64,000 nucleotides of DNA from Heterotrichella gracilis (taxonomy: Eukaryota; Sar; Xanthophyceae; Tribonematales; Xanthonemataceae). How positions within the stretch are numbered: position 1 is the first letter of the stretch; each line of letters starts with the position of its first letter. Under the pieces are notes generated by a model. The model had not been told where the DNA came from, searched no databases, and saw nothing but the letters and a program-made list of their open reading frames with translations. Below are positions 19,932 through 63,503 of this stretch, in pieces. The position numbers and the translations under genes were made by a program. The stretch covers positions 120,275-184,274 of the forward strand of contig JAULBX010030152.1 of assembly GCA_032358255.1 (NCBI GenBank), read 5' to 3'.

Positions 19932-19981
19932 TTGAATTCTCCAAAAGAAAAACCCGCACCAGCCTCTCGGCCAGTACGGGT
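19932..19981 (-). promoter_or_regulatory. Leader hairpin of the methyltransferase gene
   Basis: ACCCG/CGGGU closes an inner CUGGCC/GGCUGG stem with a GAGA loop (19952-19981). Five U follow, then the Shine-Dalgarno. It looks like an intrinsic terminator placed directly before the ribosome site, so it may attenuate. There is no clear H2, so membership in the leader family is uncertain. Confidence 0.55.
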
Positions 19982-20019
19982 CTGTGGATTGCGTAGCTCC
20001 TATCCGTGAGGACAGAGTG

Positions 20020-21075
20020 CTATGCGGCTTTTGATCTCTCCCAGTAGTCCGCAATGTCATCACCAACCTTTGCGGGCCGAATGATGAGGGTGCGAAGCCC
20101 TTGGAGTCTCGCGCGCTGCGCTAACTTTTCTGCGTAGACGCTGCCAGGTCGGCTCATTCGAGACGAACCATCTGCGTTGCGCCCGGAGCTTTTCAGCTCG
20201 TCGGAGTCGGCAAAGATGATCAGTTTCTTGACCACACCATGCAGATCCTCCGGAAGCGTGAACTCCGACAGCGCGGGCCCGTTAAGGCACGGCCAGATCG
20301 GAATACGCTTGAGCATCGCTGATGCCCAGCCTGTCTCCATCCCTTCGCATACGCCCAGCGTGTCGCCTTGCGGCTCCATCATCTGAACAGAGAAGGAATT
20401 GATTCCAACGCCCAGGTCCGTCTTCTTGGCAATTGGCACATTGGCCTTTTGCCCTTCTGCGGTCAGGTACGTCTTGTGCAGCTGCACCACCTGTCCATCC
20501 ACGCCTTGGGCGAGTGACAGCATGGCCGGGAACTTGCCCAGCAGCACTGGTCGATCCTGCCCATCGGGTGGCGGCGCCCAGTACTCCAGCGCCGGATGAA
20601 AACGGACGTTCAGCGGTGTGAAGTCCATTCCGGGCACTCGATTAAGCATGTAGCGATGCACAGGGTCACCAGTGGTGATCTCACGCGCCTCATTCCACAT
20701 CTTCAGCATGCGAGCGCGATTGCGCTCAACTTTCTCAGGGGTCCACTCGTTGGACATGGATTGCCGCGCAGCCAGCGGAATCGGCTTGATGTTGGAGTTT
20801 CCGAAGAAATCTCGCACATCGTCAGCCGCGTCCTTGAACTGCGAATATCCCATGTGGCGCATGAGCATTCCAAAGCCCGAAGAGTACTTACCCTCCGTGC
20901 ACTGATTGCACACCCACACGCCCCCGTGCTTCTTACCAGCCCAGCGGTACCGGTCACGACCCCCACAGAAGGGGCACGGACCGGGCTTGCCGTTGAAGAA
21001 GCTCGGATCCATCCCCCTTGCGGTCAGGATATCCGGCCAGCGGCCGAAAGCTAGATCCTCTGCTTTTTCGTTCAT
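20020..21075 (-). CDS. P4-alpha-like DNA primase (zinc finger plus TOPRIM)
   Basis: This 351-residue protein opens with a zinc-ribbon (CPFCGGRDRYRW near residue 33, then CNQC near 57) and carries a TOPRIM domain (VCEGMETGWASAML; IIFADSDEL). It matches the primase half of P4-like proteins but lacks the helicase half. It would prime plasmid replication or the transferred strand. The start at 21075 is set by GGAGGGA, which is part of leader hairpin H2. Confidence 0.88.
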   Translation of the reverse strand: MNEKAEDLAFGRWPDILTARGMDPSFFNGKPGPCPFCGGRDRYRWAGKKHGGVWVCNQCTEGKYSSGFGMLMRHMGYSQFKDAADDVRDFFGNSNIKPIPLAARQSMSNEWTPEKVERNRARMLKMWNEAREITTGDPVHRYMLNRVPGMDFTPLNVRFHPALEYWAPPPDGQDRPVLLGKFPAMLSLAQGVDGQVVQLHKTYLTAEGQKANVPIAKKTDLGVGINSFSVQMMEPQGDTLGVCEGMETGWASAMLKRIPIWPCLNGPALSEFTLPEDLHGVVKKLIIFADSDELKSSGRNADGSSRMSRPGSVYAEKLAQRARLQGLRTLIIRPAKVGDDIADYWERSKAA

Positions 21076-21161
21076 GATCCCTCCAAAGGAATAGAGGGAC
21101 CGACTACCCCTTGGGGCAGGAGGCCCCTCAGGGTTGAAATGTCGGCAGCCTTGACGGCTGC
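21076..21161 (-). promoter_or_regulatory. Structured 5' leader of the primase gene (leader A)
   Basis: H0 pairs GCAGCC with GGCUGC (21145-21161). H1 is closed by CCC/GGG with inner GGGGC/GCCCC. H2 pairs GGUCCCUC with GGAGGGAUC, hiding the whole Shine-Dalgarno. The alternative pairs GAGGGGCC with GGUCCCUC. No U-tract follows. Confidence 0.7.
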
Positions 21162-21189
21162 GTGTCCGCAATACTGCGAAAACGCCCTA

Positions 21190-21232
21190 ATTTTCCTGCA
21201 AATCTTTCTTATCGTCCAACGATGGCGCACAG
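21190..21232 (-). promoter_or_regulatory. CCATC-type promoter of the primase operon
   Basis: TTGGAC (21214-21219) lies 18 bp from GAAAAT (21190-21195). It is preceded by GCGCCATCG, the shared element. It is among the weaker members because of its spacing. Confidence 0.55.
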
Positions 21233-21283
21233 TCCATCAAATCTTGAAAAAGTGGCTTTTTGCAGGAGCCCGTAGGCCCCTGT

Positions 21284-21311
21284 AAAAAACCCCCGCCCCG
21301 GATGGGGCAGG
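21284..21311 (-). terminator. Terminator after the CobT-like gene
   Basis: GCCCC/GGGGC stem with six T following on the minus strand. A second hairpin (AGGGGCC...GGCUCCU-like) lies just beyond. Confidence 0.75.
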
Positions 21312-21319
21312 AGTAAGGG

Positions 21320-23538: not shown

Positions 23539-23545
23539 GGAAAGA

Positions 23546-24646
23546 TCAGAACAGGGCCACGAGTTCAGGCTCGGCCGTTTCCGTCGTCTCAGCCTCAGGC
23601 ATAAAGCCCTGGTCCTCGATGACAGTCACAGTGGCCTGCACAGGCTGTTGGGCCACTGCAGGTTGCGACGACACAGGCTCAGCAGCGGCAGCTACTGGCG
23701 CTGCCGTTTGGTTCAGCATCTGCTCGAAAGCATCTGCTGCGCTGTTGCTCTGGTACGCCATCGCGGCGACTTTCATCGCCTCACGCGGATCGCTCAGCAG
23801 ACGGCTGATCGACCACACATGCATCAGGCTGGCGCCCTCGATGGGGCCGTCCTTCGGCAGGAGGTTGATGACGTGCTGGATCATGCTTGCCATGGGCTCA
23901 CACGTCGCATCGAGGAACGAGAAGCTTTGGAACTTCTCACCGATGCGAACCAGCGGTCGCAGTGTCTTCCAGGTGACCTTCTCACGCTTTTGCACGACCC
24001 CGTTGGGGCCGGCACCAGTGAGGTACTTGGTCATCAGGATTTCCGCCTCGCGTGCAGCGTCAGCAAACAACTCGCCTTTGAGGCCAGTCATCTGCTTTGC
24101 ATACATCGAATTGGCACCGTTGTGCTCGTCTTCGCTCGGGGCGTTCACGCGGCACAAGTGGAAACCGAAGGAAAGGCGTCCGCCAACGTGTTCCGGTGTC
24201 GGAATATCGCTGATCAGGTTAGCCCACTCCGCGTTCTCCGGCTGCGCTTGCCACTTCTCGATTGCGTCGTTGAAACGCTGCTCGAAAGCGGCCTTGCGCG
24301 CGTCAAACTCGGCCTTGATTTTCACCAGTTCTTCGAACACCTTGTTCAGCTTGGCATCGGGGATGCCCATCGTGCCAAGCACGGGAAGGCCGTTGATCAG
24401 CAGGAGCTTTTCAGCGCGGCGCTTGAGCTGCAGGAAAGGTGCGAGGTCGTCGGTGTCACAGATCTTGATAGATCCGAGAGTGGCCAGCGACTCGGGGGGG
24501 AGGTTCGCGAACTCCGGGTTCTTGGCGATGAGCTGCTCCTTGCGGAGACGCTTCTTACCAGACCAGAGGTGAACATCCAGGGTCACGCAAACAAGGCCAT
24601 CGACCTTCTTGTGCTTGACTGCTTCGGTGACGTTGGAATTCGTCAT
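23546..24646 (-). CDS. DUF3150-like protein
   Basis: The start at 24646 gives 366 residues. The N-terminal 300 residues (opening VDGLVCVTLDVHLWSGKKRL) resemble DUF3150, a family found with CobS/CobT-like pairs on plasmids and phages; this is from memory and not searched. The C-terminal 70 residues are Ala/Gln/Pro-rich with a short acidic end. It is first in the operon with the CobT-like gene, so the two probably act together. Confidence 0.7.
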   Translation of the reverse strand: MTNSNVTEAVKHKKVDGLVCVTLDVHLWSGKKRLRKEQLIAKNPEFANLPPESLATLGSIKICDTDDLAPFLQLKRRAEKLLLINGLPVLGTMGIPDAKLNKVFEELVKIKAEFDARKAAFEQRFNDAIEKWQAQPENAEWANLISDIPTPEHVGGRLSFGFHLCRVNAPSEDEHNGANSMYAKQMTGLKGELFADAAREAEILMTKYLTGAGPNGVVQKREKVTWKTLRPLVRIGEKFQSFSFLDATCEPMASMIQHVINLLPKDGPIEGASLMHVWSISRLLSDPREAMKVAAMAYQSNSAADAFEQMLNQTAAPVAAAAEPVSSQPAVAQQPVQATVTVIEDQGFMPEAETTETAEPELVALF

Positions 24647-24732
24647 TGGGTTCTCCAAAAAAAAGCGGGAACCCAACCCCCAGCGGGATTGAATTCCCGC
24701 ATGGGTTGATATTGATGCAGCCGTAAAGCTGC
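24647..24732 (-). promoter_or_regulatory. Structured 5' leader of the DUF3150-CobT operon (leader C)
   Basis: H0 is GCAGC/GCUGC (24717-24732). H1 pairs AACCC/GGGUU and GCGGGA/UCCCGC. H2 pairs UUGGGUU with AACCCAA, which abuts the AUG. The alternative is the longest seen: GCGGGAAUUCAAUCCC pairs over 16 positions with GGGGUUGGGUUCCCGC (three G-U) and is followed by eight U, a textbook intrinsic terminator. It is the best example of the family. Confidence 0.78.
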
Positions 24733-24757
24733 GCACGACGGAAAGTCGAACGTTGTC

Positions 24758-24799
24758 ACTATAGGGGAATCCAGCTCCCCGGGCAAATGATGGCGACCA
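24758..24799 (-). promoter_or_regulatory. CCATC-type promoter of the DUF3150-CobT operon
   Basis: TTGCCC (24781-24786) is 17 bp from TATAGT (24758-24763). GTCGCCATCAT directly precedes the -35. Confidence 0.8.
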
Positions 24800-24843
24800 A
24801 CGCCAGAACCCACGGCTGGCGTGGCCTGGCGGCCTGTAGAAGC

Positions 24844-25479: not shown

Positions 25480-25886
25480 TCCATGGGCCCCTTCATGTCT
25501 TCGCGCTGGATCCGGATTTCCAGAGCCACATAGCGAATCATCAGGTTGTTGTACTGCTCAGACGCATCGCCCGAGAAGTACTGGCCAGCCCAGTCGCCGG
25601 TCTTCACGCCCAGCAGATCCTGCAGCGCGCGAACGCTGTCGTTCAGGCATTCTTCGATCATCTCGCCAACACGGGTGTTGAGTTCGATGATCGCGTCAGC
25701 TTCCTTCTCAGACAGTCCGTAGCTCGACGGGGGCACTTCGAAGCGACCGCAGTCGCTCAGACGCGGCTCAAAGATGTCGAAGCCGTTGCGAGTCACGCCA
25801 AACTTGAGGCGGTTCGCGGAGGCGTCCAACACCAACTTGAGATCGCTGGGGAGGTCTTTCAAACCAGCAAGCGGTTTGATTTTCAT
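25476..25886 (-). CDS. Hypothetical protein, first gene of a two-gene operon
   Basis: This 136-residue soluble protein is not recognised. The N-terminal half looks beta-rich and the C-terminal half helical and acidic. GGAG precedes the ATG but lies in the loop of leader hairpin H2. Confidence 0.75.
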   Translation of the reverse strand: MKIKPLAGLKDLPSDLKLVLDASANRLKFGVTRNGFDIFEPRLSDCGRFEVPPSSYGLSEKEADAIIELNTRVGEMIEECLNDSVRALQDLLGVKTGDWAGQYFSGDASEQYNNLMIRYVALEIRIQREDMKGPME

Positions 25887-25960
25887 TGGTGGTCTCCAAA
25901 AAAGAGAGGGACCACCCCCGCAACGGGAAGTTGGTCCCGTTGGGGTATGGGCGTATGCCC
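25887..25960 (-). promoter_or_regulatory. Structured 5' leader (leader D)
   Basis: H0 is short (GGGC/GCCC, 25949-25960). H1 pairs CCCC/GGGG and AACGGGA/UCCCGUU. H2 pairs GGUGGUC with GACCACC directly before AAUG. The alternative GGGACCA/UGGUCCC is followed by UCUCUUUUUU, so it could end transcription. Confidence 0.75.
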
Positions 25961-29332: not shown

Positions 29333-29566
29333 TCAATGCAGAACGGCTGGCGCCCATTCCATGGGATGGAATTCCTCAGCCTCCTGATGCCACTTGATCG
29401 ACGGCGGTTTGCCATCGACCAGCAGCCCGGTGCTGGGCTCATACCCCACTTTGTGGACTCCCATGGACCCATCGCACTTTTCAATGACGATAAGCATGGT
29501 CTCGTTGCCTGTTGCTGCCTGGAAGCGCTTCACCTTGTCGATGAGTTGCTCTCCCACACTTTGCAT
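29333..29566 (-). CDS. Small hypothetical protein downstream of SSB
   Basis: This 77-residue protein is not recognised. It has an ordered look (MLIVIEKCDGSMGVHKVGYE, beta-rich). It is 56 bp downstream of ssb with only leader F between, so it is probably the last gene of the SSB operon. Confidence 0.65.
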   Translation of the reverse strand: MQSVGEQLIDKVKRFQAATGNETMLIVIEKCDGSMGVHKVGYEPSTGLLVDGKPPSIKWHQEAEEFHPMEWAPAVLH

Positions 29567-29620
29567 GGCGTCTCCTTTGGAGGAGGCCAGCCCCTAGGGG
29601 GACAGGCCCCCTAGGGTTGG
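29567..29620 (-). promoter_or_regulatory. Structured intergenic leader after ssb (leader F)
   Basis: H1 is a perfect 10-bp stem, CCCUAGGGGG/CCCCCUAGGG. H2 pairs UGGC/GCCA (GCCAUG holds the start) with an inner CUCCU/AGGAG covering the Shine-Dalgarno. The alternative is GGGGGCC/GGCCUCC. There is no H0 because the ssb stop lies directly upstream. Confidence 0.68.
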
Positions 29621-33814: not shown

Positions 33815-33946
33815 TTACTGCGCTTCGTCAAGAATCTTTTCGATCTTGGCGTTGTGCTTGACAGAGACGTCCTTGGCCGACGACATAGCGCCGGATGCGA
33901 ACACGCCAACCACGATAGCGAAAATGACAACGAGAGCAGCTTTCAT
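33815..33946 (-). CDS. 43-residue membrane or secreted peptide, copy 1
   Basis: AGGAG precedes the ATG. The peptide has a hydrophobic N-terminal helix (ALVVIFAIVVGVFASGAM) and a basic-acidic tail (KDVSVKHNAKIEKILDEAQ). It may be a bitopic membrane peptide or an exported peptide with an Ala-type cleavage site. A near-identical copy lies at 34211-34342, and the differences are mostly conservative, so both appear to be under selection. Function unknown. Confidence 0.75.
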   Translation of the reverse strand: MKAALVVIFAIVVGVFASGAMSSAKDVSVKHNAKIEKILDEAQ

Positions 33947-34019
33947 GAATAACTCCTAGGGGATGATGATTCACGGAACGCTCCTTGCCCATACGGACAA
34001 GAAGTGCCCGTATGGGGTT
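33947..34019 (-). promoter_or_regulatory. Structured 5' leader of peptide copy 1 (leader S)
   Basis: H1 is a perfect 9-bp stem CCCAUACGG/CCGUAUGGG (33987-34016). H2 pairs CGUGAAU with AUUCAUG, burying the start codon while the Shine-Dalgarno sits in the loop. Confidence 0.65.
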
Positions 34020-34210: not shown

Positions 34211-34342
34211 TTACTGCGCCTCTTCCAGGATCTTTTCGATCTTGGCGTTGTGCTTGACGGAAATGTCTTTGGCCGACGACAGAGCGCCAGACGCGAACAC
34301 ACCAGCAACGATAGCGGCGACGATGACGAGAGATGCTTTCAT
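34211..34342 (-). CDS. 43-residue membrane or secreted peptide, copy 2
   Basis: GGAG precedes the ATG. The sequence matches copy 1 in length and layout: hydrophobic helix (SLVIVAAIVAGVFASGAL), then SSAKDISVKHNAKIEKILEEAQ-type tail. About 400 bp separate the two copies and the downstream regions are also duplicated, so a tandem duplication produced them. Confidence 0.75.
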   Translation of the reverse strand: MKASLVIVAAIVAGVFASGALSSAKDISVKHNAKIEKILEEAQ

Positions 34343-34411
34343 GATGACTCCAAAAAGGAAAGATCACGAAGCACTCTGCCCTACAGGCAAAAATGCCCGT
34401 GAGGGTTGGTT
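34343..34411 (-). promoter_or_regulatory. Structured 5' leader of peptide copy 2 (leader T)
   Basis: H1 pairs CCCU/AGGG and CGGGC/GCCUG. H2 pairs CGUGAU with AUCAUG, burying the start codon. Its sequence differs from leader S but its H2 logic is the same. Confidence 0.65.
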
Positions 34412-39998: not shown

Positions 39999-41075
39999 TT
40001 ACTCCTCAACCTGGGGGAACCGGCTGACCAGTGAGGTCAGTGCGCTCCACACCTGGAAGTAGGCCTTCAAATCGAAGGCCAGTTTGTTGAATTCGTCCTG
40101 TGAGGACGTCGCATCGATTTGTGTGTAGCCGATCATCTCGACACACATTCCACCGTTGTATGTTCCTTCTTCATAGTGCTGGACCAGTTCGTAAGTGAAC
40201 TCCGGGTTATCCCAGACCATGAAGCATGCTGCGCCGATTGGCTCGACTTCGTTCTCGTACTGAAAGTCCACGAACCGAGTCGTGTTCTTTTTCAGGTAGA
40301 GGTCGTCAAGCTTTACAGCGTCGTTCAAGACCGCCTGCAGATCTGCGCTCAACACGTTGCCCTTGAGCATGCGCTTTGCGGCTTTCAGGTTTATGGTCTT
40401 GCGCTTCTCCTTCGTTGGCGACCGCCACCCCAAGAGGTGGTGATGGCCGCCAACATCGGCAAGCAAGTCGGAAGGAAGGAACATGAACTGCTCGCGCAGC
40501 TCAGCCCGTCGCTCCTCTGTGATTTCCCCGTCAGGCGCGTCCTGCCCTTCATTGGCGAAGTGCTCGTCGCTCAGCTCCTTGTCCGTAGTAGCGCCGTAGA
40601 AATAGGCGTCTGCGTACTGGGCTGCAGCTAAGGGGTTGTAGAGGTTGATCCCATGACCTGTGGCCATAGACATGACGTTCGTGACATACCATCCCAGCCC
40701 CTCGCAATTACGCTCAAGGGCTTCGATGACCGGCTTGAGCCGGAAGGCATTCAGATGCGACCGAGCGTTGATGCGCACGACGAAATGACTGTCAGTTGCC
40801 ACGATTTCCGGTCCAGCGTTCAGCATGGGCTCACCGCTGGGCAGTGTTGCCTGAACATAAGCCTGCCACTGTTGCTGCAGAACCGTCTTGATGTCCGTGA
40901 AGTTGCCACCGGGAAGCTCGATGCCCGCCGCCTCAGTCGCCAAGGCGAACTTGGCGAGGCAGCGATCAAGGGAAGATTCCGTGCCGATGACGACAGGAAT
41001 CTCGGGGCTTAGGTCCGGGAGAACGAACGTGCCGGCCCCAATCAGGGGCGGTCGCTCGAAAACTGTTGATTCCAT
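39999..41075 (-). CDS. PRTRC system protein F
   Basis: The start at 41075 gives 358 residues. The position at the head of the F-B-A-ThiF operon and the general sequence (LPDLSPEIPVVIGTESSLDRCLAKF; GLGWYVTNVMSMATGHGINLYNP) fit PRTRC protein F. Its start codon lies within leader hairpin H2. Confidence 0.82.
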   Translation of the reverse strand: MESTVFERPPLIGAGTFVLPDLSPEIPVVIGTESSLDRCLAKFALATEAAGIELPGGNFTDIKTVLQQQWQAYVQATLPSGEPMLNAGPEIVATDSHFVVRINARSHLNAFRLKPVIEALERNCEGLGWYVTNVMSMATGHGINLYNPLAAAQYADAYFYGATTDKELSDEHFANEGQDAPDGEITEERRAELREQFMFLPSDLLADVGGHHHLLGWRSPTKEKRKTINLKAAKRMLKGNVLSADLQAVLNDAVKLDDLYLKKNTTRFVDFQYENEVEPIGAACFMVWDNPEFTYELVQHYEEGTYNGGMCVEMIGYTQIDATSSQDEFNKLAFDLKAYFQVWSALTSLVSRFPQVEE

Positions 41076-43081: not shown

Positions 43082-43185
43082 GTGAATCTCCAAAAAAAAG
43101 GGAGACCACATGCCCTGGTGGGGATGTGATCCCCACAGGGTTTGCCGCAAAGGGCAGGTGTTGAAAATGTCGCTACGAGAGCGAC
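43082..43185 (-). promoter_or_regulatory. Structured 5' leader of the methyltransferase operon (leader H)
   Basis: H0 is GUCGCU/AGCGAC (43169-43185), with an extra UGCC/GGCA hairpin before H1. H1 pairs CCCU/AGGG and GUGGGGA/UCCCCAC. H2 pairs CAUGUG with CACAUG, burying the start, plus UCUCC with GGAGA, burying the Shine-Dalgarno. The alternative pairs GGGGAUCACAU with AUGUGGUCUCC (11 pairs) and is followed by CUUUUUUUU. Confidence 0.78.
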
Positions 43186-43837: not shown

Positions 43838-44533
43838 TTATGCGCCCTCGGCTACCATGGCCATCTCGTCGCGGCGTTCCTCAGCCTTGCTGTAGGCCCA
43901 CTGGTAGTAGCTCTGCAGCGTGTAGTCACTTGCAACAGCTTTGACCCAGTGGTCGACCGGGAAAATGGTACGCATAGCGTTTACCGCAGCGCCTTCGATG
44001 TTGTCGTACACAGCCGTCGCCTGCTTCTCCAGCGCCATCCACGACCAGTAGATTCCTCCCGGTACATCGGACTTGATCAGCTTGATGCCGGCCACTTCAG
44101 CGATTGCCAGGGCCGCAGAGGCTTCGTTGTCCAGGATCAACGAAAGCGGCAGATCCTTCTTTCCATGAAGGGTCTCGTTCACGACCTGGTCGTACAGCTC
44201 AGCGACGCTATCAACGCAGTCGGCGCCGTTGATTTCGTCATCGGAGCCGAAGCCGATTTCGCTCAGGCCATGCAAGAGCATGTTCAGAGCGAGTTCACGG
44301 TCCTGGGCCAGCAACTGAATGCGGGACCAGGCGGGATCGAAGTCATCAAAGGAGATGACGGGGTCATATCCATCGGAGACTGCGCGGCGCTCAGCCTCGT
44401 CATAGTGGCGGCCTTCGTCACGGTCAGTCTTGGAGCAGCTGATGTCGTAGAACACCAGGTCGGGTGCGCCATTGCTGTCGCGCGCCAGAACTGCGACCTT
44501 ACCGGTCACGATGGGGTTGATTGCTTGATTCAT
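43838..44533 (-). CDS. Hypothetical acidic protein
   Basis: The start at 44533 gives 231 residues, acidic and without recognised motif. It begins with a beta-rich segment (GKVAVLARDSNGAPDLVFYD) and becomes helical. It is first in the operon and preceded by leader I. Confidence 0.7.
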   Translation of the reverse strand: MNQAINPIVTGKVAVLARDSNGAPDLVFYDISCSKTDRDEGRHYDEAERRAVSDGYDPVISFDDFDPAWSRIQLLAQDRELALNMLLHGLSEIGFGSDDEINGADCVDSVAELYDQVVNETLHGKKDLPLSLILDNEASAALAIAEVAGIKLIKSDVPGGIYWSWMALEKQATAVYDNIEGAAVNAMRTIFPVDHWVKAVASDYTLQSYYQWAYSKAEERRDEMAMVAEGA

Positions 44534-44621
44534 GTGTGATTCCTTGATGCGGGACCACACAAGCCCAGACGGGACATTGAATAGTCCCTGTTGGGTGAAG
44601 ATTAATGCTGGCAGAGCCAGC
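44534..44621 (-). promoter_or_regulatory. Structured 5' leader (leader I)
   Basis: H0 is GCUGGC/GCCAGC (44607-44621). H1 pairs CCCA/UGGG and GGGAC/GUCCC. H2 pairs UGUGUG with CACACA, ending on the A of the AUG. The alternative is GGGACUAU/GUGGUCCC. No U-tract. Confidence 0.72.
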
Positions 44622-44821: not shown

Positions 44822-46528
44822 CTAGATCAGCTCCATTTGGGTCTCAAACAGCACGTCGCAACGCTTTTCCAGTTCTTCCCTTGTGCGCTGGCCATGCAGG
44901 TTGTGAGCCTGGCGCCACTGAGAGCGCTGCAGGATTTCGTGCGTTTGGCTGCTGCGGCCCTTGTAGAGCTCCAGCACACCGTATTGCAGGTATGTCTTGA
45001 AGCCCCAGGTCCAGTCGCTGCAGTCCTCACGGCAGTACTCCTTTATCTTCTCTTCGGCGATGAACTCGATGAAGTCCGATGCGCCTTGAGCGTCGATGGT
45101 CATTTCGTTGTCCGACTCCACGTCCACCACGAGGCTACCATCGTTGAGCGTTCGCAGGTCAAACCCGCAAGACTCGTGGTGCAACTCCATGGCCACATGG
45201 CGCAAACCGCTCACATTGCCGCGCATGGCAGCGTTGTAGGACGGAGCCCCGACGAACACCTTGCCGATCTTCGGCGTGGGCGTCTTCGGGTAGCGCGGCA
45301 CCTTTGGGGCGTGCGTCAGATTCCCGCTCATGACTTCGAACCAGATTTTCAAAGCCGTAAACGGTGGCGCGATGGCGTATTGCGACCAGCGAGCGTCGAT
45401 GCCTATCAGCTGCTCAATGGAAATGATCGGCACACCCGATTCAATTTCCGCTGACAGCGTGTAGCGCAGCAGTTCCTGCAGCATGTCCGGGGAGTAGGTA
45501 TCGGCGCCGATGGCAATGAAGCCCTCAGCGTCAATCGTCCTGCCCACGAACGTGCGACGGTTCCAGTCGAACTGCGTGTGCGAGATGAAGTCACGCAGAT
45601 CCGCCAGTCGCTGAAGACGGCCATAACGCTTCGGATCGGACTCGATCATCGACTTCATGGATTTGTCTTCGCCCACTCGGACGCAGGCCCAACAGCCAGT
45701 TCTCGTGCCACAAGGTTTTGAATTCCCCTGCGACTTCATGTCCGCAACGATGACGCAACTGTCTCCACCGCCAGATTGATAGATCCTCATGACATCTTCG
45801 AAGGTCGAGTAGGAGTCATAGATTCCGGCGTTAGCCATGCCTATAAATTCCCAGACGTCATCAGCGGATTCCCAGTCGAGAAGCGGCGAAAGACGCAATG
45901 CGCCCATCTCGTTTTCCCAGATACCTTCAGCTACTTCACCGCGCTTTGCAATCTTCTGATCGCGAGCAATCGATTCAGTCTTACGAACACCGGTCATCAC
46001 AACTGGCTTGTTCCACTGGCCGGTTCCTTCAAGCTCTTCGAACACTTCTTTCTGTGCACGCGAGTTTGGCAACACCTTCCATGACACGCTACAGTCGCCG
46101 TTGCCGCCAGGAAATGACGGCAGCGCGCGACCACCGATAACACGGACAGGAAACGAGTCTGCAAGTGATGGGTGCGAGATGCGCGTCTGCAGCGGAATGT
46201 TATGTTCCTTCGCATAGGCACGCATCTTTGCCAGCTCCTGCGTGGCCAGGTCGACCATCTCAGGCTGCTCCACACCCGTATTACCGTGTAAGACGACGAT
46301 GGGTGGGCACTTGCCGCCATTGGCGACAAACATGCGTGCTGCGCTCAGAGCGATCGCAGCAAGCGTGCTCGAGTCCTTACCTGAGGAGAATGCGATGACC
46401 GCAGGATGACCGGCCTCAAGGACGGCCGTCACGCGGCGCATCGCCCTGTCGACTGGTAGCTCGTTCAGGCGAATTTTGATCTGCCGCTCGGGAGCATGCT
46501 CGATCACGGCATCTTCGAAAAGATCCAT
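44822..46528 (-). CDS. DndC-like PP-loop (PAPS reductase family) protein
   Basis: This 568-residue protein has the PP-loop AFSSGKDSSTLAA (about 47), LHGNTGVEQPEM, MTGVRKTESIARD and cysteines in GTRTGCWACVRVG that could hold an Fe-S cluster. The layout matches DndC, the sulfur-handling enzyme of DNA phosphorothioation, but no dndB, dndD, dndE or IscS-like dndA is near, so a complete Dnd system is not present. The C-terminal 200 residues are extra. It may alter DNA or tRNA, or use another cofactor. Confidence 0.75.
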   Translation of the reverse strand: MDLFEDAVIEHAPERQIKIRLNELPVDRAMRRVTAVLEAGHPAVIAFSSGKDSSTLAAIALSAARMFVANGGKCPPIVVLHGNTGVEQPEMVDLATQELAKMRAYAKEHNIPLQTRISHPSLADSFPVRVIGGRALPSFPGGNGDCSVSWKVLPNSRAQKEVFEELEGTGQWNKPVVMTGVRKTESIARDQKIAKRGEVAEGIWENEMGALRLSPLLDWESADDVWEFIGMANAGIYDSYSTFEDVMRIYQSGGGDSCVIVADMKSQGNSKPCGTRTGCWACVRVGEDKSMKSMIESDPKRYGRLQRLADLRDFISHTQFDWNRRTFVGRTIDAEGFIAIGADTYSPDMLQELLRYTLSAEIESGVPIISIEQLIGIDARWSQYAIAPPFTALKIWFEVMSGNLTHAPKVPRYPKTPTPKIGKVFVGAPSYNAAMRGNVSGLRHVAMELHHESCGFDLRTLNDGSLVVDVESDNEMTIDAQGASDFIEFIAEEKIKEYCREDCSDWTWGFKTYLQYGVLELYKGRSSQTHEILQRSQWRQAHNLHGQRTREELEKRCDVLFETQMELI

Positions 46529-46596
46529 TTGATGTCCCTTTCAGAAAGGGACGGCCACCAGCCCCCACGGGCAGTTGATGCCCGTCTGGGTTGGTG
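46529..46596 (-). promoter_or_regulatory. Structured intergenic leader before the DndC-like gene (leader J)
   Basis: H1 pairs CCC/GGG and ACGGGC/GCCCGU. H2 pairs GUCCCUUU with AAAGGGAC, burying the Shine-Dalgarno AAGGGA. No H0, because the upstream gene ends 10 bp away. Confidence 0.68.
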
Positions 46597-46605: not shown

Positions 46606-46905
46606 TCACTCGACGTTGCTGATCCACACCAGGATGTGGACTCCGCGCGAGACGACAGCGTTTTTATAGTGCTCACGACATGCGTTCACGATCTGTTCCC
46701 AGATGTGTTCGGGCATGTCAGAGTCAGTCCCTTCCCCGTTGAGGGAGGGATCTACGCCGACAACAACGTCTGACCACTCGTCAGGGTTGCCCCCGCTGTG
46801 CCAAGTGAACTTGGTTGAGTCGTTGTTGAGCCAGTTGATGAACGCGTGGTCCTTGAAGTACTCAGGAGCGTTGATGCGCAGGCTTACGCCCTGCTCGATT
46901 TTCAT
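46606..46905 (-). CDS. Hypothetical 99-residue protein upstream of the DndC-like gene
   Basis: The start at 46905 gives a small acidic, Trp-containing protein (FINWLNNDSTKFTWHSGG; MPEHIWEQIVNACREHYKNA). It is not recognised. It is first in the K operon, so it may be a partner of the DndC-like protein. Confidence 0.7.
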   Translation of the reverse strand: MKIEQGVSLRINAPEYFKDHAFINWLNNDSTKFTWHSGGNPDEWSDVVVGVDPSLNGEGTDSDMPEHIWEQIVNACREHYKNAVVSRGVHILVWISNVE

Positions 46906-46993
46906 GGTGATTTCCTGTGAAGGAGGCACCATGGCCCCGATCGGGCATGTGGCGCCCGTAGGGGTAAGTGAAGAGTGCTGACAGATGGTCAGC
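46906..46993 (-). promoter_or_regulatory. Structured 5' leader (leader K)
   Basis: H0 is GCUGAC/GUCAGC (46977-46993). H1 pairs CCCC/GGGG and CGGGC/GCCCG. H2 pairs CAUGGUG with CACCAUG, burying the start codon. The alternative is GGCGCCA/UGGUGCC. Confidence 0.76.
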
Positions 46994-47020
46994 AAATCAG
47001 CATTGCGCCGAAGTGGGTCA

Positions 47021-47122: not shown

Positions 47123-47560
47123 TTAGGCCGGTTCCATCTCGGGGTGAGCCAAGTCGAAAGCGACGCAAAATTGATCTGTCAGTTGCCAAACTTCCAGCGA
47201 GGCGAACCCGGACTGAATCCGCTTTCCGGTGTCACGGAAGAAGCCCTGGGCAAGCATTTGCTCGCGCAGATGCTCGTTTTCGTCGTAGGTCTTGACGATG
47301 ATCTCGCCCGGCTTACAGTCGTTTGGCCGGACGTTTTTCGTGAGGTCAGTGTACGGCTCCCAGAAGGGGAGCTCGTCCTTTACCCACAGCTCAAGGCAGA
47401 GCGGGGAGCCGACGTAGGCGTATCGGTTGGCAGAGAAGGCCAATCGAATCGGCTGGCCGTCGTAACCCTTGGCGTCAAAGGCGCCGAAGAGTCGCTGGTC
47501 AATCGGACGATCCATCGAATGCTGCGCACGCAGCGCCAGGTCGAAGGTCTGAATGGTCAT
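47123..47560 (-). CDS. Hypothetical protein, single-gene operon
   Basis: The start at 47560 gives 145 residues (TIQTFDLALRAQHSMDRP...). It contains an aromatic, Pro-rich middle and is not recognised. It has its own CCATC-type promoter, leader and terminator, so it is an independent cargo unit inserted in the PRTRC cassette. Confidence 0.72.
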   Translation of the reverse strand: MTIQTFDLALRAQHSMDRPIDQRLFGAFDAKGYDGQPIRLAFSANRYAYVGSPLCLELWVKDELPFWEPYTDLTKNVRPNDCKPGEIIVKTYDENEHLREQMLAQGFFRDTGKRIQSGFASLEVWQLTDQFCVAFDLAHPEMEPA

Positions 47561-47616
47561 GGGTTTCCTTTCGGGCCCAAGCACCCAACGGGCCGATTGG
47601 GCCCATGTGGGTTGAT
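47561..47616 (-). promoter_or_regulatory. Structured 5' leader (leader L)
   Basis: H1 pairs ACCCA/UGGGU and GGGCC/GGCCC. H2 is short, UGGG/CCCA touching the AUG. The alternative UGGGCCCAA/UUGGGCCCG is nine pairs and stronger. Confidence 0.62.
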
Positions 47617-48210: not shown

Positions 48211-48714
48211 TCACAGGCTGAACAGCGACGGTGCGCCGGTTTCGGCGGCCAGCTCGGTGCTGACGCCACCGCCACCTTCATCCGAACCGCCCTGCGACTC
48301 ATCGTCGGACTCTTCAATGAAGCCCGCGTTGGGGTCGCGCTTTGCCGGAGTGCTCGTAGCGCGCTTGGGAGCGCTGGACGTGGCATTCGCAGCTGGGGCC
48401 TTCTTCGGCTCGGCGGCTTTCACCGTCGTGGCCTTGGCATCAGCTTCCGCCTTCTGCATCACGGCAGCGCACACGGCGATCTGCTCGTTCAAGCTGGTAG
48501 CGGACGAGATGTACTTCGCGAGGAAGTCCGGCACTGCGGCATCCAACTCTTCGGCAGAACCCACCAGGGCGCGCGGAGGAATCGAGATGCCAGTCTTGGC
48601 CGTATCCGTGACGGGCAGCACCTCGAACTGAATGCCGTCGCCGGCAGGACGCAGAGTGAGGTGCACCGTGACCCCGGCCTTGACGAGCGGGGCGAATTGT
48701 TGAAACAGGTTCAT
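48211..48714 (-). CDS. PRTRC system protein E
   Basis: The start at 48714 gives 167 residues. The N-terminal half (NLFQQFAPLVKAGVTVHLTLRPAG) fits PRTRC protein E; the second half is Ala/Pro/Lys-rich with an acidic, Gly-rich end. It lies between ParB and C. Confidence 0.82.
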   Translation of the reverse strand: MNLFQQFAPLVKAGVTVHLTLRPAGDGIQFEVLPVTDTAKTGISIPPRALVGSAEELDAAVPDFLAKYISSATSLNEQIAVCAAVMQKAEADAKATTVKAAEPKKAPAANATSSAPKRATSTPAKRDPNAGFIEESDDESQGGSDEGGGGVSTELAAETGAPSLFSL

Positions 48715-48795
48715 AGCATTTCCTAGGAGAAATGCGGGTGAACTGCCGTGCGGGCAGAACACCCGCAGGTTTTGAGACTGGCTGGGATTACCAGC
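48715..48795 (-). promoter_or_regulatory. Structured intergenic leader of the PRTRC E gene (leader M)
   Basis: H0 (GCUGG/CCAGC, 48781-48795) contains the ParB stop codon. H1 pairs UGCGGG with CCCGCA. H2 pairs GCAUUUC with GAAAUGC and covers the Shine-Dalgarno. The alternative pairs UGCGGGUG with CACCCGCA. Translation of ParB would open H0, which offers coupling. Confidence 0.68.
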
Positions 48796-50500
48796 GCATG
48801 AACGAGGGCAGTTTGCCCTTGTATTCGAAGCCCTCGATGGAGGTCGCCGACTTGATGAAATCGGCCTTGCTGCCGTTCTTCACCTTGTCGTAGTCCTTGC
48901 CCATCGCCTTGTCGATCCCGAGCTCAACGCACACGGCGTCGATCTCGTTCTTCGTGAGCACATCCAGAAAGTCAGGGTTGACCATCCAGTAGTTCTCGAT
49001 TTTCATCTCCAGCGCCTTGGCCATCGTTTTGACGGCGCTCAGTTCCAGAGTCGCACTCACATGCGCAGGCACTTGCAACAATGCAGTTGCCAAGCCTTGT
49101 TGGTCGAGTTGCAGAATGAACTGCATGAGCTCGCCAGCGTCGTGGGTGTTGATGCTTTCGAAACCCAGCGCCTTGGCAATTGCCTTGGAACTGGTATGCG
49201 AATCCAACGAGCCAGGCCGGTAGAGGCACAACCCGATGAGCAACGCACGGCTCTTTTCGACCGGGAGACGTTTGGCAGCGCGGTTGAACACGCCACGCCA
49301 GATCTTCTCGCGATACTCCTTGAGCACATTTCGAACTTCTGCAAAGGCCTGCTTCTGGTTTTCACCAGCGTCAGGTTTCTCTGCGCCTTCGCTCGGAGCT
49401 GCGACCTGGCCCTTGGGGGCGGCAGCAGCTGCGTTGCGTTGCGGCTGTTTGGCATCCTTCACAGCGGGCTTGGACGGCGTTTCGCCAGCCTCGACCTTCT
49501 GTGCCTTCGCATTGGCCTGCACCTTCTCGGTATTGCAGGTCACGTTGAAGCAGATGTCCGTGAACGTCATGCCCAGCTTGTCCGGCACTGCTGAAACGCA
49601 GGCACCGAAATCACCGCACATGCGGCAGGCCTTGGCCTGCTCCTCGCCGACACCCTTGGGCCCTTCCGCACGAAGCGGGGTCAGGCTCAACTTGTCGTCG
49701 GGACGCACGATTCGCACGACCTGGTAGGACTCGGCAAGCGCCTTGCGGCGGTTTTCGAGCTCAGCCTCGGTCTTGGACTTGAAGCACTCGTCGTTGGTAC
49801 AACGGACACCATCAAAGGACGTTTCGAACATCCCCTGCTGGGTTTGGGTGTTGTACTGACAGCCGGCGCAGTCGGTCTTGTCGAAGATGGCTTTGTCCAG
49901 ATTCAGGAGAACCTGTTCGGCCATCGACTTCAACTGCGCAACGCTGGGCACGCCGTTCTTGAGGATCATGCCAAGGACATGATCCTGGACTGCGCGGCGC
50001 ATTGCTGCGAGCACTTCCAGATGTCCCAGCTCGATCTTCTCCTCGATGTACGCGTCACGCACTTGGTCGCTTGCGTTCATCAGGGCCAGACGGCGACTCA
50101 GCGTTGCAGGGCTCCAGCCCAGACGGCGCGCTGTTTCAGCACGGTCGCCATTGAGCAGGCCCAGCATACGAGCAGCCGCCTCGGCATCCTCGATTGCTGT
50201 TGTGTCCTCGCGAACCTTGTTTTCACTGATCATCAGGGCCGTGGCTTCGGCATCGCTCAGCACTCGAACGAGCGCCGGGATCTCTGCCTGGTCGCCAAAC
50301 GCCTCTTTGAAGGCGCGCACACGACGGTGGCCGGCGATGATCTGGTAATTACCGTCCTCTTTCGGGCGAACCAAAATCGGGGTACTCAGACCGTTTCTGC
50401 GGACATCATCGGTCAGCAGTTCCATCGCTGCTGCATTGAAGCGGCGGCGATAGTTCCACGTGTCCGAAAGCTTCCATACGGGGACTTTGAGTTGATCCAT
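48788..50500 (-). CDS. PRTRC system ParB-family protein
   Basis: The start at 50500 gives 570 residues. The N-terminal ParB/Spo0J domain shows IIAGHRRVRAFKEAFG (about 60) and a helix-turn-helix (RAETARRLGWSPATLSRRLAL, about 140). A middle region has two Cys clusters (CAGCQYNTQT, RCTNDEC, ACRMCGDFGACV) that could bind metal, and the C-terminal part is unique to PRTRC ParB. It is distinct from the partition ParB at 60561. Confidence 0.9.
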   Translation of the reverse strand: MDQLKVPVWKLSDTWNYRRRFNAAAMELLTDDVRRNGLSTPILVRPKEDGNYQIIAGHRRVRAFKEAFGDQAEIPALVRVLSDAEATALMISENKVREDTTAIEDAEAAARMLGLLNGDRAETARRLGWSPATLSRRLALMNASDQVRDAYIEEKIELGHLEVLAAMRRAVQDHVLGMILKNGVPSVAQLKSMAEQVLLNLDKAIFDKTDCAGCQYNTQTQQGMFETSFDGVRCTNDECFKSKTEAELENRRKALAESYQVVRIVRPDDKLSLTPLRAEGPKGVGEEQAKACRMCGDFGACVSAVPDKLGMTFTDICFNVTCNTEKVQANAKAQKVEAGETPSKPAVKDAKQPQRNAAAAAPKGQVAAPSEGAEKPDAGENQKQAFAEVRNVLKEYREKIWRGVFNRAAKRLPVEKSRALLIGLCLYRPGSLDSHTSSKAIAKALGFESINTHDAGELMQFILQLDQQGLATALLQVPAHVSATLELSAVKTMAKALEMKIENYWMVNPDFLDVLTKNEIDAVCVELGIDKAMGKDYDKVKNGSKADFIKSATSIEGFEYKGKLPSFMRW

Positions 50501-50598
50501 GGATCCTTTTTCCTTGCAAGAAAAAAAGCGGGGACCCATGAGCCCCAGACGGGGGATAGGTCCCCGCCAGGGTTGAATGATGCGCGCCGTAGGCGCGC
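50501..50598 (-). promoter_or_regulatory. Structured 5' leader of the PRTRC ParB operon (leader N)
   Basis: H0 is GCGCGCC/GGCGCGC (50582-50598). H1 pairs CCC/GGG and CGGGG/CCCCG. H2 is nine pairs, CAUGGGUCC/GGAUCCAUG, including the start codon. The alternative pairs GCGGGGACCUAU with AUGGGUCCCCGC (12 pairs) and precedes seven U. Confidence 0.78.
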
Positions 50599-61568: not shown

Positions 61569-61587
61569 TCGAACTCAAACTTCCCAA

Positions 61588-61615
61588 AGCCCGGGCGATG
61601 TCCCGGGTTTTTTTT
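61588..61615 (+). terminator. parAB terminator
   Basis: CCCGGG/CCCGGG stem (AGCCCGGG...CCCGGGTT) followed by eight T. Confidence 0.88.
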
Positions 61616-61664
61616 CGTCAATGGGGGCAATCTGTCCCGGGCCACGGGGCAGGGCAGTAACTTA

Positions 61665-61815
61665 GGACACGCGTGTCCCGAGCGGCCGAGGGCCAGCCAA
61701 AACTGATGCAAACAGGGTGTCGTGGCAGTTCAGGACACGCGTGTCCTGAAAGGCCTGAGGACCGTCAAAGCAGCCCCAAGCTGGGTGCCCGCGAGAACTT
61801 AGGACACGCGTGTCC
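61665..61815. repeat. Palindrome array, candidate parS cluster (left)
   Basis: GGACACGCGTGTCC occurs at 61665-61678, 61733-61746 and 61802-61815, 68-69 bp apart, extending to 16-18 bp palindromes at two sites. Two alternating longer units (one with CGAGCGGCCGAGGGCC, one with AGGCCTGAGGACCGTC) fill the gaps. Position next to parB and the CGCG-centred palindrome fit a centromere. The 61569-61909 stretch holds no gene otherwise. Confidence 0.75.
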
Positions 61816-61864
61816 TCAACGAGGTTGCACTCAGCAAACGCGGGCGAATTAAGGTTGTCGGTGC

Positions 61865-61892
61865 AAAAAAAACCCCGGCACTTGGCCGGGGT
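61865..61892 (-). terminator. Terminator after the second PP-loop gene
   Basis: ACCCCGG/CCGGGGT stem followed by eight T. Confidence 0.9.
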
Positions 61893-61909
61893 CGAGGAGG
61901 GGAGGGCGG

Positions 61910-62974
61910 TCAGGTCGGACCAGCAGACTCACCAAATGCGCCAGGAGGCAGCACCCAGTCGTCTGTGATGATCGGATGATCAAAGGTCTTTCCGTTCGCC
62001 ACGCCGACCCAGTAAGGGTCGACAGGGTAGGGCGTTCCCGCGTTCGCACGTGTGATCACGTCTTCTTTGCGGTGGATGGTCACTCCGAACTCGCGTTCGT
62101 AGTTAGCCACCTGGTTGAACTGCGCTGGGGCAATCAGCCGGTTTGTGGCCAACTGATTCTTCGATGCGAAGATACAGGATCTGCAGGACACGCGCCCATA
62201 GAAAAGCCAGTAAGCCGGGTGAGGGACCACACCGAACTCCTTGATGATTCGCCACACTTGAGCCTCAGACCAGCCGTGAACGGCTCGCCAGTGGTCGATG
62301 TGACGCTGCACCTTCTTGCCTTCACGCAGATCTGCCCGGTGAGGCTCGAAGCGCTTGTAGTTCGCACGCGCCGTGCTTTCCTCTGCGCGCTCGCCCGTGA
62401 GCACCAGGGTCTTGCCGTTTGTGAACTTGGGGTGGTTGCAAAGGTAAGACGAGAAGACGCCGATCTTCGCTGCACTGGAGCACCAGCGAACGCTCAAGTC
62501 GGCACTGCACTGAGGGAATTTGCGACGAGTGCCCAAAGGGCCTTCACCGCCAACCTCGATGTAGCCACTCGGTCCTGGAACGATGCTGGGTGCCGTCGAA
62601 GAGTTGTCTCGCAGCATTTCTGCCTCGATCCCGCCCTTGCGCCAGCTGTACGTCAGCTCCACGTTGAAGGCCCGGCTGAGCGCTTCGCAGTACCCTTCGG
62701 TAATCGGCCAATCCATCAGCGTCGAACCCTCGCCGCCATCCACTCTGTGGTGATGCATTTCGATTCGGTGCGCCGGGATGCCAAGCTTCAGCAGCACCAG
62801 GAGCAGAGCCAAGGAGTCCTTGCCGCCGCTCATGGCCACGATGTAGCGGTCGTACGTGAATACGTCCAAGCCTTCCGGGATCTCGATATCGACCTCGGGT
62901 GGCTTGACGCCAAACGCAGACAGCAGTGCGCCATTGACCAGGTCGTCTGGTATTGGCCGTTCTTCCTTGCTCAT
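61910..62974 (-). CDS. PP-loop (PAPS reductase-like) protein, second type
   Basis: Starting at 62974 gives 354 residues. The PP-loop is VAMSGGKDSLALLLVLL (about 48). Further signatures are HHHRVDGGEGSTLMDW, KFPQCSADLSVRWCSS, LVLTGERAEESTARA and SCRSCIFASKNQ, giving three or four conserved cysteines. This group is common on phages and plasmids and resembles enzymes that adenylate or sulfurate, but has no proven role. It is distinct from the DndC-like protein and shares its operon with the 62971 gene by a 4-bp overlap. Confidence 0.78.
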   Translation of the reverse strand: MSKEERPIPDDLVNGALLSAFGVKPPEVDIEIPEGLDVFTYDRYIVAMSGGKDSLALLLVLLKLGIPAHRIEMHHHRVDGGEGSTLMDWPITEGYCEALSRAFNVELTYSWRKGGIEAEMLRDNSSTAPSIVPGPSGYIEVGGEGPLGTRRKFPQCSADLSVRWCSSAAKIGVFSSYLCNHPKFTNGKTLVLTGERAEESTARANYKRFEPHRADLREGKKVQRHIDHWRAVHGWSEAQVWRIIKEFGVVPHPAYWLFYGRVSCRSCIFASKNQLATNRLIAPAQFNQVANYEREFGVTIHRKEDVITRANAGTPYPVDPYWVGVANGKTFDHPIITDDWVLPPGAFGESAGPT

Positions 62975-63411
62975 GCGAGACTCCCTTCGGTGAGAAGCTC
63001 GCGAGCCCATGCGGCCAGATCAGCTTTCCGCTTCTCACGGTCAGGGGTGACGGACGGCTGTTCGCTGATGGTCATTGCCTCGGGGACGAGGTAAGGACCG
63101 TGCCACGTGTAGCCAGCCGTCAGATGGGGAAGTACGGCGCCTTGCTGAGACAGGGCGACGTCACGCAGTTCCAGTAACGTGCGACCGTAGTACCTGGTTG
63201 GGACCGTTGAGTCCTCCTTGGCGCCACTGGTGCGGTAGTAGGTCACTGCGTGCTGATGCACCGATTGGCGCCCGGTCGGTGATGTAGCGAACCACACCAA
63301 GCTGACGGATTTATGTCTGTGGTCGACCTTGACGGCCTTCTGCAGACGGAACGCAGTTTCCTTGAGCGAGAGCAGGGGTGCTGCACTCGCTTTCGCGGTA
63401 AGTTGGTTCAT
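62971..63411 (-). CDS. Hypothetical protein, first gene of the second PP-loop operon
   Basis: The start at 63411 gives 146 residues. It has a beta-rich central region (KSVSLVWFATSPTGRQSVHQ; YTWHGPYLVPEAMT) and is not recognised. The start codon is inside leader hairpin H2. Confidence 0.7.
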   Translation of the reverse strand: MNQLTAKASAAPLLSLKETAFRLQKAVKVDHRHKSVSLVWFATSPTGRQSVHQHAVTYYRTSGAKEDSTVPTRYYGRTLLELRDVALSQQGAVLPHLTAGYTWHGPYLVPEAMTISEQPSVTPDREKRKADLAAWARELLTEGSLA

Positions 63412-63503
63412 GGGGAAGGTTCCAAAAAACCCGGGCCCATGACCCCCTTCCGGGCGTATGAGCCCGGTAGGGTGAATAAAGCGCGCCGCGAAGAAGCGGG
63501 CGC
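63412..63503 (-). promoter_or_regulatory. Structured 5' leader of the second PP-loop operon (leader O)
   Basis: H0 is GCGC-C-CGC with GCG-G-CGC (63483-63503). H1 pairs CCCU/AGGG and CGGGC/GCCCG. H2 pairs UCAUGGG with CCCAUGA, burying the start codon. The alternative pairs CCGGGCUCAU with AUGGGCCCGG (10 pairs), followed by GUUUUUU. Confidence 0.77.

Follow-up and report, generated by a model that had tools for sequence, protein, structure and literature searches.

Mutually exclusive pairings within one leader, strands 1:2 and 3:4 against another combination, are known from attenuators and translational riboswitches, and the leaders of hok and of the MS2 maturation gene belong to the metastable-hairpin mRNAs. 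For the aapA toxin mRNAs of Helicobacter, the part of the published account drawn on here (PMC6733600) describes metastable leader hairpins that can govern translation, hiding the ribosome site early. The leaders that we describe come from a 64,000-nucleotide stretch (hereafter the window: positions 120,275 to 184,274 of contig JAULBX010030152.1, Heterotrichella gracilis assembly GCA_032358255.1), where they stand on many gene starts of a plasmid. They resemble the metastable-hairpin mRNAs (aapA, hok, MS2) in that helices compete around the ribosome site and folding order would count, but those are single genes, whereas here one design is found on many unrelated genes, and the proposed transient fold would free, not hide, the site. 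With attenuators and riboswitches they share exclusive pairings, the alternative here being 1:3; unlike in those, no aptamer-like core, leader peptide or T-box was noticed in the leaders, and the window has no Rfam riboswitch match.

In our reading each leader would be the 5′ untranslated part of an mRNA, built of four strands, A, B, C and D, and the leaders would constitute a two-state translational RNA switch shared across conjugative elements, OFF when A pairs with B and C with D, and ON when A pairs with C. We put the probability of this at roughly 0.6.

A third helix in the leaders

Sixteen minus-strand leaders of the window are real. At these 16 gene starts the usual layout is a hairpin (H0), a pyrimidine-rich linker ending in UCAACCC, a hairpin closed by CCC and GGG (H1, the A:B helix) and then a stem (C:D) over the Shine-Dalgarno sequence and/or the AUG. 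An earlier account made from the letters of the window (the sequence-only reading) had described this architecture, and its nine best cases are all present, with coordinates and pairs as it gave them; its family of about eighteen exists on the minus strand but is set at 16. It had also placed the leaders outside the transfer region, and this holds: none was accepted in that region (bases 1 to about 18,000, with a TraI_2 relaxase and TraD, assigned partly by comparison with related plasmids), and R1, our covariance model of 27 hand-picked sequences, built without A:C, has no window match at E<=1 in bases 1-20,000.

The initial 16 candidates were chosen by eye, for an AACCC and a start behind it, among 34 minus-strand H1 hits. 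One of them (23531, ahead of a VWA gene, with H1 only) was dropped before the strand-swap test of 15 leaders described below, at which point A:C had already been noticed by eye in nine leaders; the accepted 16 are these 15 and 48714. Site 19980, only a hairpin and a T-run, was dropped too. Ten window leaders (the nine best cases and 44533) were folded alone, each set against 200 dinucleotide shuffles of its own, and their minimum free energy (MFE) z-scores range from -2.8 to -5.7. A three-helix score of at least 54 is reached by 10 of the 646 window start codons with a ribosome-site-like motif, all on the minus strand, nine of them leader starts and one an overlapping GTG at 29559; with the upstream part of each of the 646 dinucleotide-shuffled once, a single start reaches it. 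All three helices are detected by the scanner in 12 of the 16 leaders, the others being 47560, 46528, 33570 and 48714. A CCC-stem-GGG scan finds H1-like sites 34 times on the minus and 29 times on the plus strand (many of the latter mirroring the same hairpins), and 18, 8 and 15 times in three Markov sequences of window length scanned on a single strand. H0 is real in aggregate, scoring 13.5 against 8.7 for shuffled letters (standard deviation, SD, of the mean 0.67) in 45 curated leaders and 12.1 against 8.3 (SD 0.59) in 71 further, model-found leaders; no H0 was detected in two of the 45, window leader 46528 among them.

The type leader, which has orthologues in 11 other plasmids or genomes, is laid out as follows:

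24644..24707, minus strand: type leader, of a DUF3150 gene; A:C of 16 bp including 3 G-U pairs, A GCGGGAATTCAATCCC with C GGGGTTGGGTTCCCGC; C:D, C GTTGGGTTC with D GAACCCAAT; T8 after C
24717..24732, minus strand: H0 of the type leader, GCAGC-TTTACG-GCTGC, with a 9-nt linker before AACCC
24758..24786, minus strand: sigma70-like promoter of the type leader, TTGCCC-17-TATAGT

Absent from the sequence-only reading was a third helix, in which the 5′ arm and loop of H1 (A) pair with the 5′ arm of the start-hiding stem (C). A:C is mostly 7-16 bp long (16 at 24646, 13 at 50500, 11 at 41075 and 43081, 10 at 63411). In this fold the CCC of B often re-pairs with the GGG that closes H1; the 5′ CAACCC is unpaired, as is most of D, the start region. 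Because A resembles D, it competes with the ribosome site for C. Two mutually exclusive folds, A:B+C:D (fold 1) and A:C (fold 2), are thus predicted for these leaders, and covariation supports them.

The support comes from exchanging strands between leaders while keeping composition and common motifs (20,000 permutations). In the 15 window leaders A:C scores 20.8 natively and 13.5 when swapped, and C:D 17.3 and 12.3; in 39 leaders for which H1 and a start codon were the sole search criteria the values are 20.1 and 12.7 for A:C, 15.8 and 12.2 for C:D; and in 74 distinct model-found leaders of other genomes they are 19.95 and 14.94, and 15.97 and 12.6, with 0 of 20,000 permutations in each set, the scores depending on the helix scoring used here and the permutations ignoring kinship of leaders, which also raises the swapped scores. 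The leader list chosen on the three-helix score is unable to test A:C for that very reason; the sets of 39 and 74 can. The 39 are drawn from the window, three relatives and part of a fourth plasmid, and include probable chance hits (BPS33 38926, 46559 and 147910). The 74 were found with a covariance model that holds A:B and C:D, not A:C: 81 of 87 model matches were used (duplicates or low rows L115, L126, L086:226, L122, L095:2145 and L107:8 being omitted), giving 74 distinct leaders, 71 of which have an open reading frame (ORF) of at least 40 codons directly behind them. No fewer than three of the 74 were already known, L074 (a PBL-H3 leader), L075 and L111 repeating, or nearly repeating, leaders of the training set.

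A MAFFT alignment of 27 leaders agrees. Two-sided changes are seen in 8 of 12 A:C pairs and 7 of 8 C:D pairs, with covariation of 0.282 (shuffled 0.220 +- 0.019) and 0.214 (shuffled 0.123 +- 0.020), each reached in 0/500 shuffles, and the true register is top in both covariation score and share of paired cells. For PRTRC protein F the three strands change together in orthologues: in the window A is GGGATTCAT, C is ATGGGTCC and D is ACCCATG, while at locus L072 they are GGGACCTGC, GCAGGTTCC and GAACCTG. In the H0 of the DUF3150 leaders both sides change in 3 of 5 pairs (alignment A3). Since co-variation of three strands keeps the exclusion while the sequence drifts, such a switch escapes ordinary homology search.

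These results bear on the simplest alternative, that the leaders are static start-hiding hairpins, for weak translation or as thermometers, with A:C a by-product of purine-rich A and D. The MFE fold does usually hide the start (on average 10.1 of the last 15 nt are paired in 71 leaders), as such hairpins would; yet swapped leaders are equally purine-rich and their A:C drops (0/20,000), and the window has no Rfam thermometer match (ROSE, fourU), so that we regard this explanation as improbable. The sequence-only reading was right that pairing is kept while sequence changes and that the stems end on the ribosome site or AUG, but the strongest helix in many leaders is A:C, and its one-way start-burying hairpin gives way to a competing, start-freeing helix that is equally well supported.

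A sense-strand RNA and its proposed switching

Helices were seeded on Watson-Crick pairs only and the exceptions then counted. A:C holds 61 G-U and 4 A-C exceptions in the 45 leaders (swapped background 432:146). In the second set, of 71 leaders, the counts are 62 and 5 (background 1433:376; p = 0.005), and pooling both sets gives Fisher p = 8e-6; C:D follows the same trend weakly (13 and 6), and A:B shows none (11 and 10). A G-U pair on the sense strand is an A-C mismatch on the template strand, which makes the sense strand, most simply the mRNA, the molecule under selection.

This asymmetry matters for the idea that the leaders are single-stranded-DNA promoters of the Frpo type, folding on the entering strand during conjugation. 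Like the Frpo/ssi promoters in the portion of the source used here (PMC11541004), the leaders are repeated hairpins ahead of leading-region-type genes and on one strand: 35 of 38 leaders of the window and of the related plasmids of Polaromonas JS666 and Hydrogenophaga PBL-H3 and BPS33 lie on the transfer-operon strand, and leaders precede, among others, primase-, ParB-, ArdC- and methylase-like genes, kinds that the same portion also reports from leading regions (PMC11541004). However, Frpo requires a folded template strand, at odds with the sense-strand G-U signature; the stems end on the ribosome site and AUG; the best promoter boxes lie mostly outside the stems; and one leader (PBL-H3 310067) faces the other way. 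In 24 of the 45 curated leaders the best sigma70-like boxes are upstream of H0, with the end of the -10 lying 40-61 nt before AACC (100 shuffles: mean 8.3, maximum 13), so that in this set H0 would be part of the transcript; the position was not reproduced in the 71 model hits (19, shuffled 20.8). On the asymmetry and the promoter position together we judge an Frpo-like origin very unlikely indeed.

Upstream of several leaders we also observed a box, GCCATCRTTTG or a close variant, near the -35 of seven window leaders and 143-168 nt upstream of the start codon, the variants having been picked after the sequences had been read:

50663, 47703, 44685, 43249, 41224, 24794 and 21226, minus strand, and 28781, plus strand: GCCATCRTTTG-like box

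It is perhaps the operator of a common transcription factor. A gene for an FlhC-like regulator adjoins the relaxase gene in two related plasmids.

The switch that we propose would work as follows. In fold 1 the 5′ CCC of CAACCC closes the A:B stem on GGG and C:D holds the Shine-Dalgarno sequence and/or the AUG, and this pairing of D would block initiation. In fold 2 A and its loop would pair with C, and within the resulting hairpin the CCC of B would re-pair with GGG; this fold would release D as well as the 5′ UCAACCC run. Only A:C leaves D largely unpaired, so it should be the state that allows expression, with A:B+C:D silent. The choice between the folds may fall during transcription of the leader, or a common factor that reads H0 and UCAACCC may make it; as UCAACCC is wholly single-stranded only in A:C, it would, together with H0, be the natural site for a factor that holds the ON state. 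Where there is a T-run after C, it could pause the polymerase and give A time to take C. What can be read directly from the sequences is that there are three helices, that they change in concert and belong to the sense strand, that they sit on gene starts and that they are spread over conjugative elements; the plasmid-wide translational control named by the sequence-only reading stands as regards the many gene starts, and control of translation as such is deduced from position and pairing.

Constrained folding of 39 of the 45 leaders (six being left out for a missing helix) finds fold 1 lower in 36, by a mean of 6.3 kcal/mol, and in a second set it is the lower one for 43 of 48 leaders. Fold 1 pairs 10.5 of the last 15 nt and fold 2 pairs 4.6 (39 leaders). 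For RNA truncated immediately ahead of D, 22 of 39 leaders have A:C as the lower fold, and the saddle from A:C to the final fold has a median of about 16 kcal/mol by a path heuristic; these energies make a decision during transcription plausible, not proven.

The same values fit a ligand-free timer, in which the nascent RNA passes from A:B through A:C to A:B+C:D and is translated only while young. Such behaviour is known from the maturation gene of RNA phage MS2 and, in mirror image, from the aapA toxin mRNAs. A:C being lower before D in 22 of 39, A:B+C:D being lower in 36 of 39 once the leader is complete, and a saddle high enough to make the passage slow all speak for it, but the order is not followed in 17 of 39, and the timer leaves the conserved UCAACCC and H0 unexplained. 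We consider it possible, with odds clearly below even.

Attenuation of transcription is a serious rival as well, although we think it rather unlikely. Here A:C with its T-run would be an intrinsic terminator and A:B the antiterminator, C:D mattering only to transcripts that escaped. A terminator scan does pick the A:C of the type leader (16 bp, 9 G-C pairs, then T8); at least 5 T occur upstream of the ribosome site in 14/45 and 28/71 leaders (shuffled 3.3 and 5.5), and at least 6 T within the 8 nt after C in 15/40. On the other side, 31/45 and 43/71 leaders have no run of 5 T, 11/40 have at most 2 T within 8 nt after C, and expression from A:B would leave C:D to form over the start and hide it. 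Termination may occur in a subset of the leaders.

Several observations weigh against the two-state translational switch itself. The T-run of part of the leaders is equally compatible with a terminator, and the 17 of 39 leaders in which A:C is not lower before D count against our reading as they do against a timer. At the thresholds used at least one of the three helices is missing from 23 of the 71 model-found and 6 of the 45 curated leaders. In leader 48714 A:C is compatible with a D hairpin (GCATTTC/GAAATGC), which breaks mutual exclusion. One slid A:C register of the 27-leader alignment has 22 two-sided cells, the true one 20. Among the DUF3150 orthologues alone (10 distinct rows) the A:C covariation is weak, its score being reached by 89/500 shuffles (H0 plus A:B, 0/500; C:D, 17/500), because A:C hardly varies there. 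No aptamer-like conserved core was seen: of the profiled columns only those of CAACC(C) and of the GG of A are prominent, and alignments A1 and A4 hold nothing resembling a larger core. A plasmid-encoded ProQ/FinO protein as common factor was rejected, PF04352 being found in 0 of 3 related plasmids; over all replicons together, each of 5 whole genomes has one match.

A wider version of the switch, which we put forward tentatively and hold somewhat doubtful, is a regulon-wide device of conjugative plasmids and integrative elements, in which the A:C state of many establishment and maintenance genes would be set by one factor recognising H0-UCAACCC. If so, translation of an element could be opened together, for example on arrival in a new cell, without any target sequence common to the switches themselves. 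Discussion of conjugative elements usually centres on transcription factors, to which a shared translational switch would add a second layer spanning the element. We also considered a boxA-type signal for the linker (best-match mean 5.76, shuffled 5.16, SD 0.07), but the conserved letters are UCAACCC, not boxA, and it is a weak lead.

Related plasmids, genomes and Rfam motifs

DUF3150 leaders are conserved in the plasmids of Polaromonas JS666 and Hydrogenophaga PBL-H3 and BPS33, and an alignment search added eight further genomes (Polaromonas 3, Burkholderiales bacteria 2, Caenimonas, Hydrogenophaga and Ramlibacter); single-protein searches of viral and genome contigs found no relative. Leaders of PRTRC F occur at 7 of the 8 loci of these genomes (L069 having none in the scan), with A, C and D changing in concert, and the ParB, PRTRC E and primase leaders also have counterparts in relatives. 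The 41 kb scanned of CJ2 held no leader scoring 44 or more, an H1-only scan giving one. A near-identity plasmid search with window 40-60 kb gave no match, and with 1-20 kb a single record, traD of BPS33.

At E<=0.01 model R1 has matches in 49 of the 399 family genomes, with two or more in 26 of the 49, and in 13 of 369 genomes of the class set, two of which (G001 and G122) are shared with the family set; its E-values are rough, about 4 genomes of either set being expected by chance. The feature is thus not confined to the window plasmid, and some matches are on chromosome-sized contigs. By Pfam the genes behind leaders include ArdC-like ones, exonuclease-like, DUF3577, DUF932 (just under the cut-off), AAA and methylase genes, kinds that are at home on conjugative elements. 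In genome G037 two leaders (L083:2303-2376 and L128:363-434) have 42 nt upstream and their first 50 nt in common and diverge from the T-run on, as if a copy of one gene's leader had been placed ahead of a different gene.

In the window no Rfam family scores at or above its cut-off, and none lies over leaders at E<=1 in 20 related loci. The closest likeness is to the DUF3085 RNA (RF02959), a candidate cis-regulatory RNA. Its consensus ends in GuCC..GGaC-acauCAACCCacCGGG, which corresponds to the H0, linker, CAACCC and start of A of the leaders; this 3′ consensus, H0-acauCAACCCacCGGG, agrees with the leader profiles. The model ends before B, C and D. At its cut-off of 40.6 bits it has 0 matches in the window and in the 399 genomes (best 40.1), and its two 5′ hairpins (CGGuAGCUGG... 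and gcuc..gagc) have no match at E<=5 in window bases 18000-64000. Below the cut-off, full-length matches occur at L104 and on the 295-kb contig G195:C77, which has four matches of 30.0 to 40.1 bits and also carries six R1 leaders. Ten RF02959-like loci were compared with the leaders: CAACCC is nearby in 7, an R1 match at E<1e-4 is present in 2, some are followed by H1, and 4 gave a three-helix score, one of these taken from a CAACCC farther upstream; a three-helix leader follows in three or four. Three of the ten are without CAACCC in the stretch examined; L168 is unlike a leader, and for L167 and L174 the measurement began at an upstream CAACCC. Pfam returned nothing, hence no DUF3085, for the proteins encoded behind two RF02959-like loci and behind one R1 locus, and the window genes tested behind leaders are DUF3150, PRTRC-like, primase-like and others, not DUF3085.

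From these parallels the Rfam DUF3085 model is probably the 5′ part of one sub-class of the leaders, and the leader switch may give that RNA a function. The statement of the sequence-only reading that it knew of no named RNA class with this layout needs qualifying: no locus tested reached the RF02959 cut-off, but the last positions of RF02959 are H0-CAACCC-nn-CGGG. A second motif, the freshwater-2 RNA (RF02980), gives a weak full-length alignment over one leader ahead of a DUF3577 (ICE) gene, sharing hairpins, T-run, AAGGAG and AUG, at 19.4 bits at best against a cut-off of 49.9 and with 0 of 60 genomes at E<=0.1. These Rfam motifs reportedly come from a 2017 paper on 224 candidate RNAs. The literature searched, a scope outside which the source paper of the DUF3085 motif falls, held no title or abstract on such leaders, and we think that, as far as it goes, the switch, its second half and its spread are undescribed.

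Other leaders of the window

The remaining accepted leaders, with the H0 hairpins noted for three of them, are these:

50498..50574, minus strand: leader of a PRTRC ParB-like gene; A:C GGCGGGGACCTAT/ATGGGTCCCCGCT, 13 bp; C:D CATGGGTCC/GGATCCATG over the AUG; T7 after C
50582..50598, minus strand: H0 of the ParB leader, GCGCGCC-TAC-GGCGCGC
41073..41131, minus strand: leader of the PRTRC protein F gene; A:C GCGGGATTCAT/ATGGGTCCTGC, 11 bp; C:D CATGGGT/ACCCATG
43079..43142, minus strand: leader; A:C GGGGATCACAT/ATGTGGTCTCC, 11 bp; C:D CATGTGG/TCACATG and GGTCTCC/GGAGATT
63409..63473, minus strand: leader; A:C CCGGGCTCAT/ATGGGCCCGG, 10 bp; C:D TCATGGG/CCCATGA
21073..21135, minus strand: leader of a primase-like gene; A:C GAGGGGCC/GGTCCCTC; C:D GGTCCCTCTA/TGGAGGGATC over the ribosome site
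25884..25947, minus strand: leader; A:C GGGACCA/TGGTCCC; C:D GGTGGTC/GACCACC, adjoining the AUG
46903..46965, minus strand: leader; A:C GGGCGCCA/TGGTGCCT; C:D CATGGTG/CACCATG
46976..46994, minus strand: H0 of the 46905 leader, TGCTGAC-CATCT-GTCAGCA
44531..44596, minus strand: leader; A:C GGGACTAT/GTGGTCCC; C:D TGTGTGGT/ATCACACA
44607..44621, minus strand: H0 of the 44533 leader, GCTGGC-TCT-GCCAGC
48712..48771, minus strand: leader of a PRTRC E-like gene (Pfam match just under the cut-off); A:C TGCGGGTG/CACCCGCA
47558..47613, minus strand: leader; A:C TGGGCCCAA/TTGGGCCCG, 9 bp
46526..46592, minus strand: leader of a PAPS-reductase-domain gene; C:D strong, GTCCCTTT/AAAGGGAC; A:C weak (5 bp); fails the three-helix scan
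29564..29618, minus strand: leader of a 77-aa gene; A:B 10 bp; A:C AGGGGGCC/GGCCTCCT; C:D weak, 5 bp
33944..34019, minus strand: leader of a 43-aa gene; A:B 12 bp; A:C weak, 6 bp; C:D CGTGAAT/ATTCATG
34340..34407, minus strand: leader of a similar 43-aa gene; A:C weak, with several G-U pairs; C:D TTCGTGAT/ATCATGAA
33568..33632, minus strand: doubtful leader; A:B strong (12 bp), yet the ORF behind it has 16 codons only

The ParB-like leader has annotated orthologues in JS666 and PBL-H3, BPS33 329901 probably being another, and the primase-like leader has orthologues in JS666, PBL-H3 and BPS33. In the 47558..47613 leader A itself is able to pair with the start (CATGGG/CCCATG), and there is no regular C:D.

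The two 43-aa proteins (33815-33946 and 34211-34342, minus strand; MKAxLV...VFASGAxSSAKDxSVKHNAKIEKILxEAQ) are near-identical, each with its own leader, and in JS666 a similar leader at 191591 precedes a 48-codon ORF. The assembly to which the window belongs (G000) comprises 68.5 Mb in 903 contigs, well beyond the size of a single bacterium; possible sources of the plasmid contig are a bacterium within or next to a larger organism and a mixed assembly. In two relatives the genes for B12-dependent ribonucleotide reductase (L002 near 2280 and L003 near 5069) carry a different structured leader, unlike the A-B-C-D family; the two share CCAATGTGCATC and GTGCATT-CGGGTCTCGC-like stretches, and the window copy starts near 28896.

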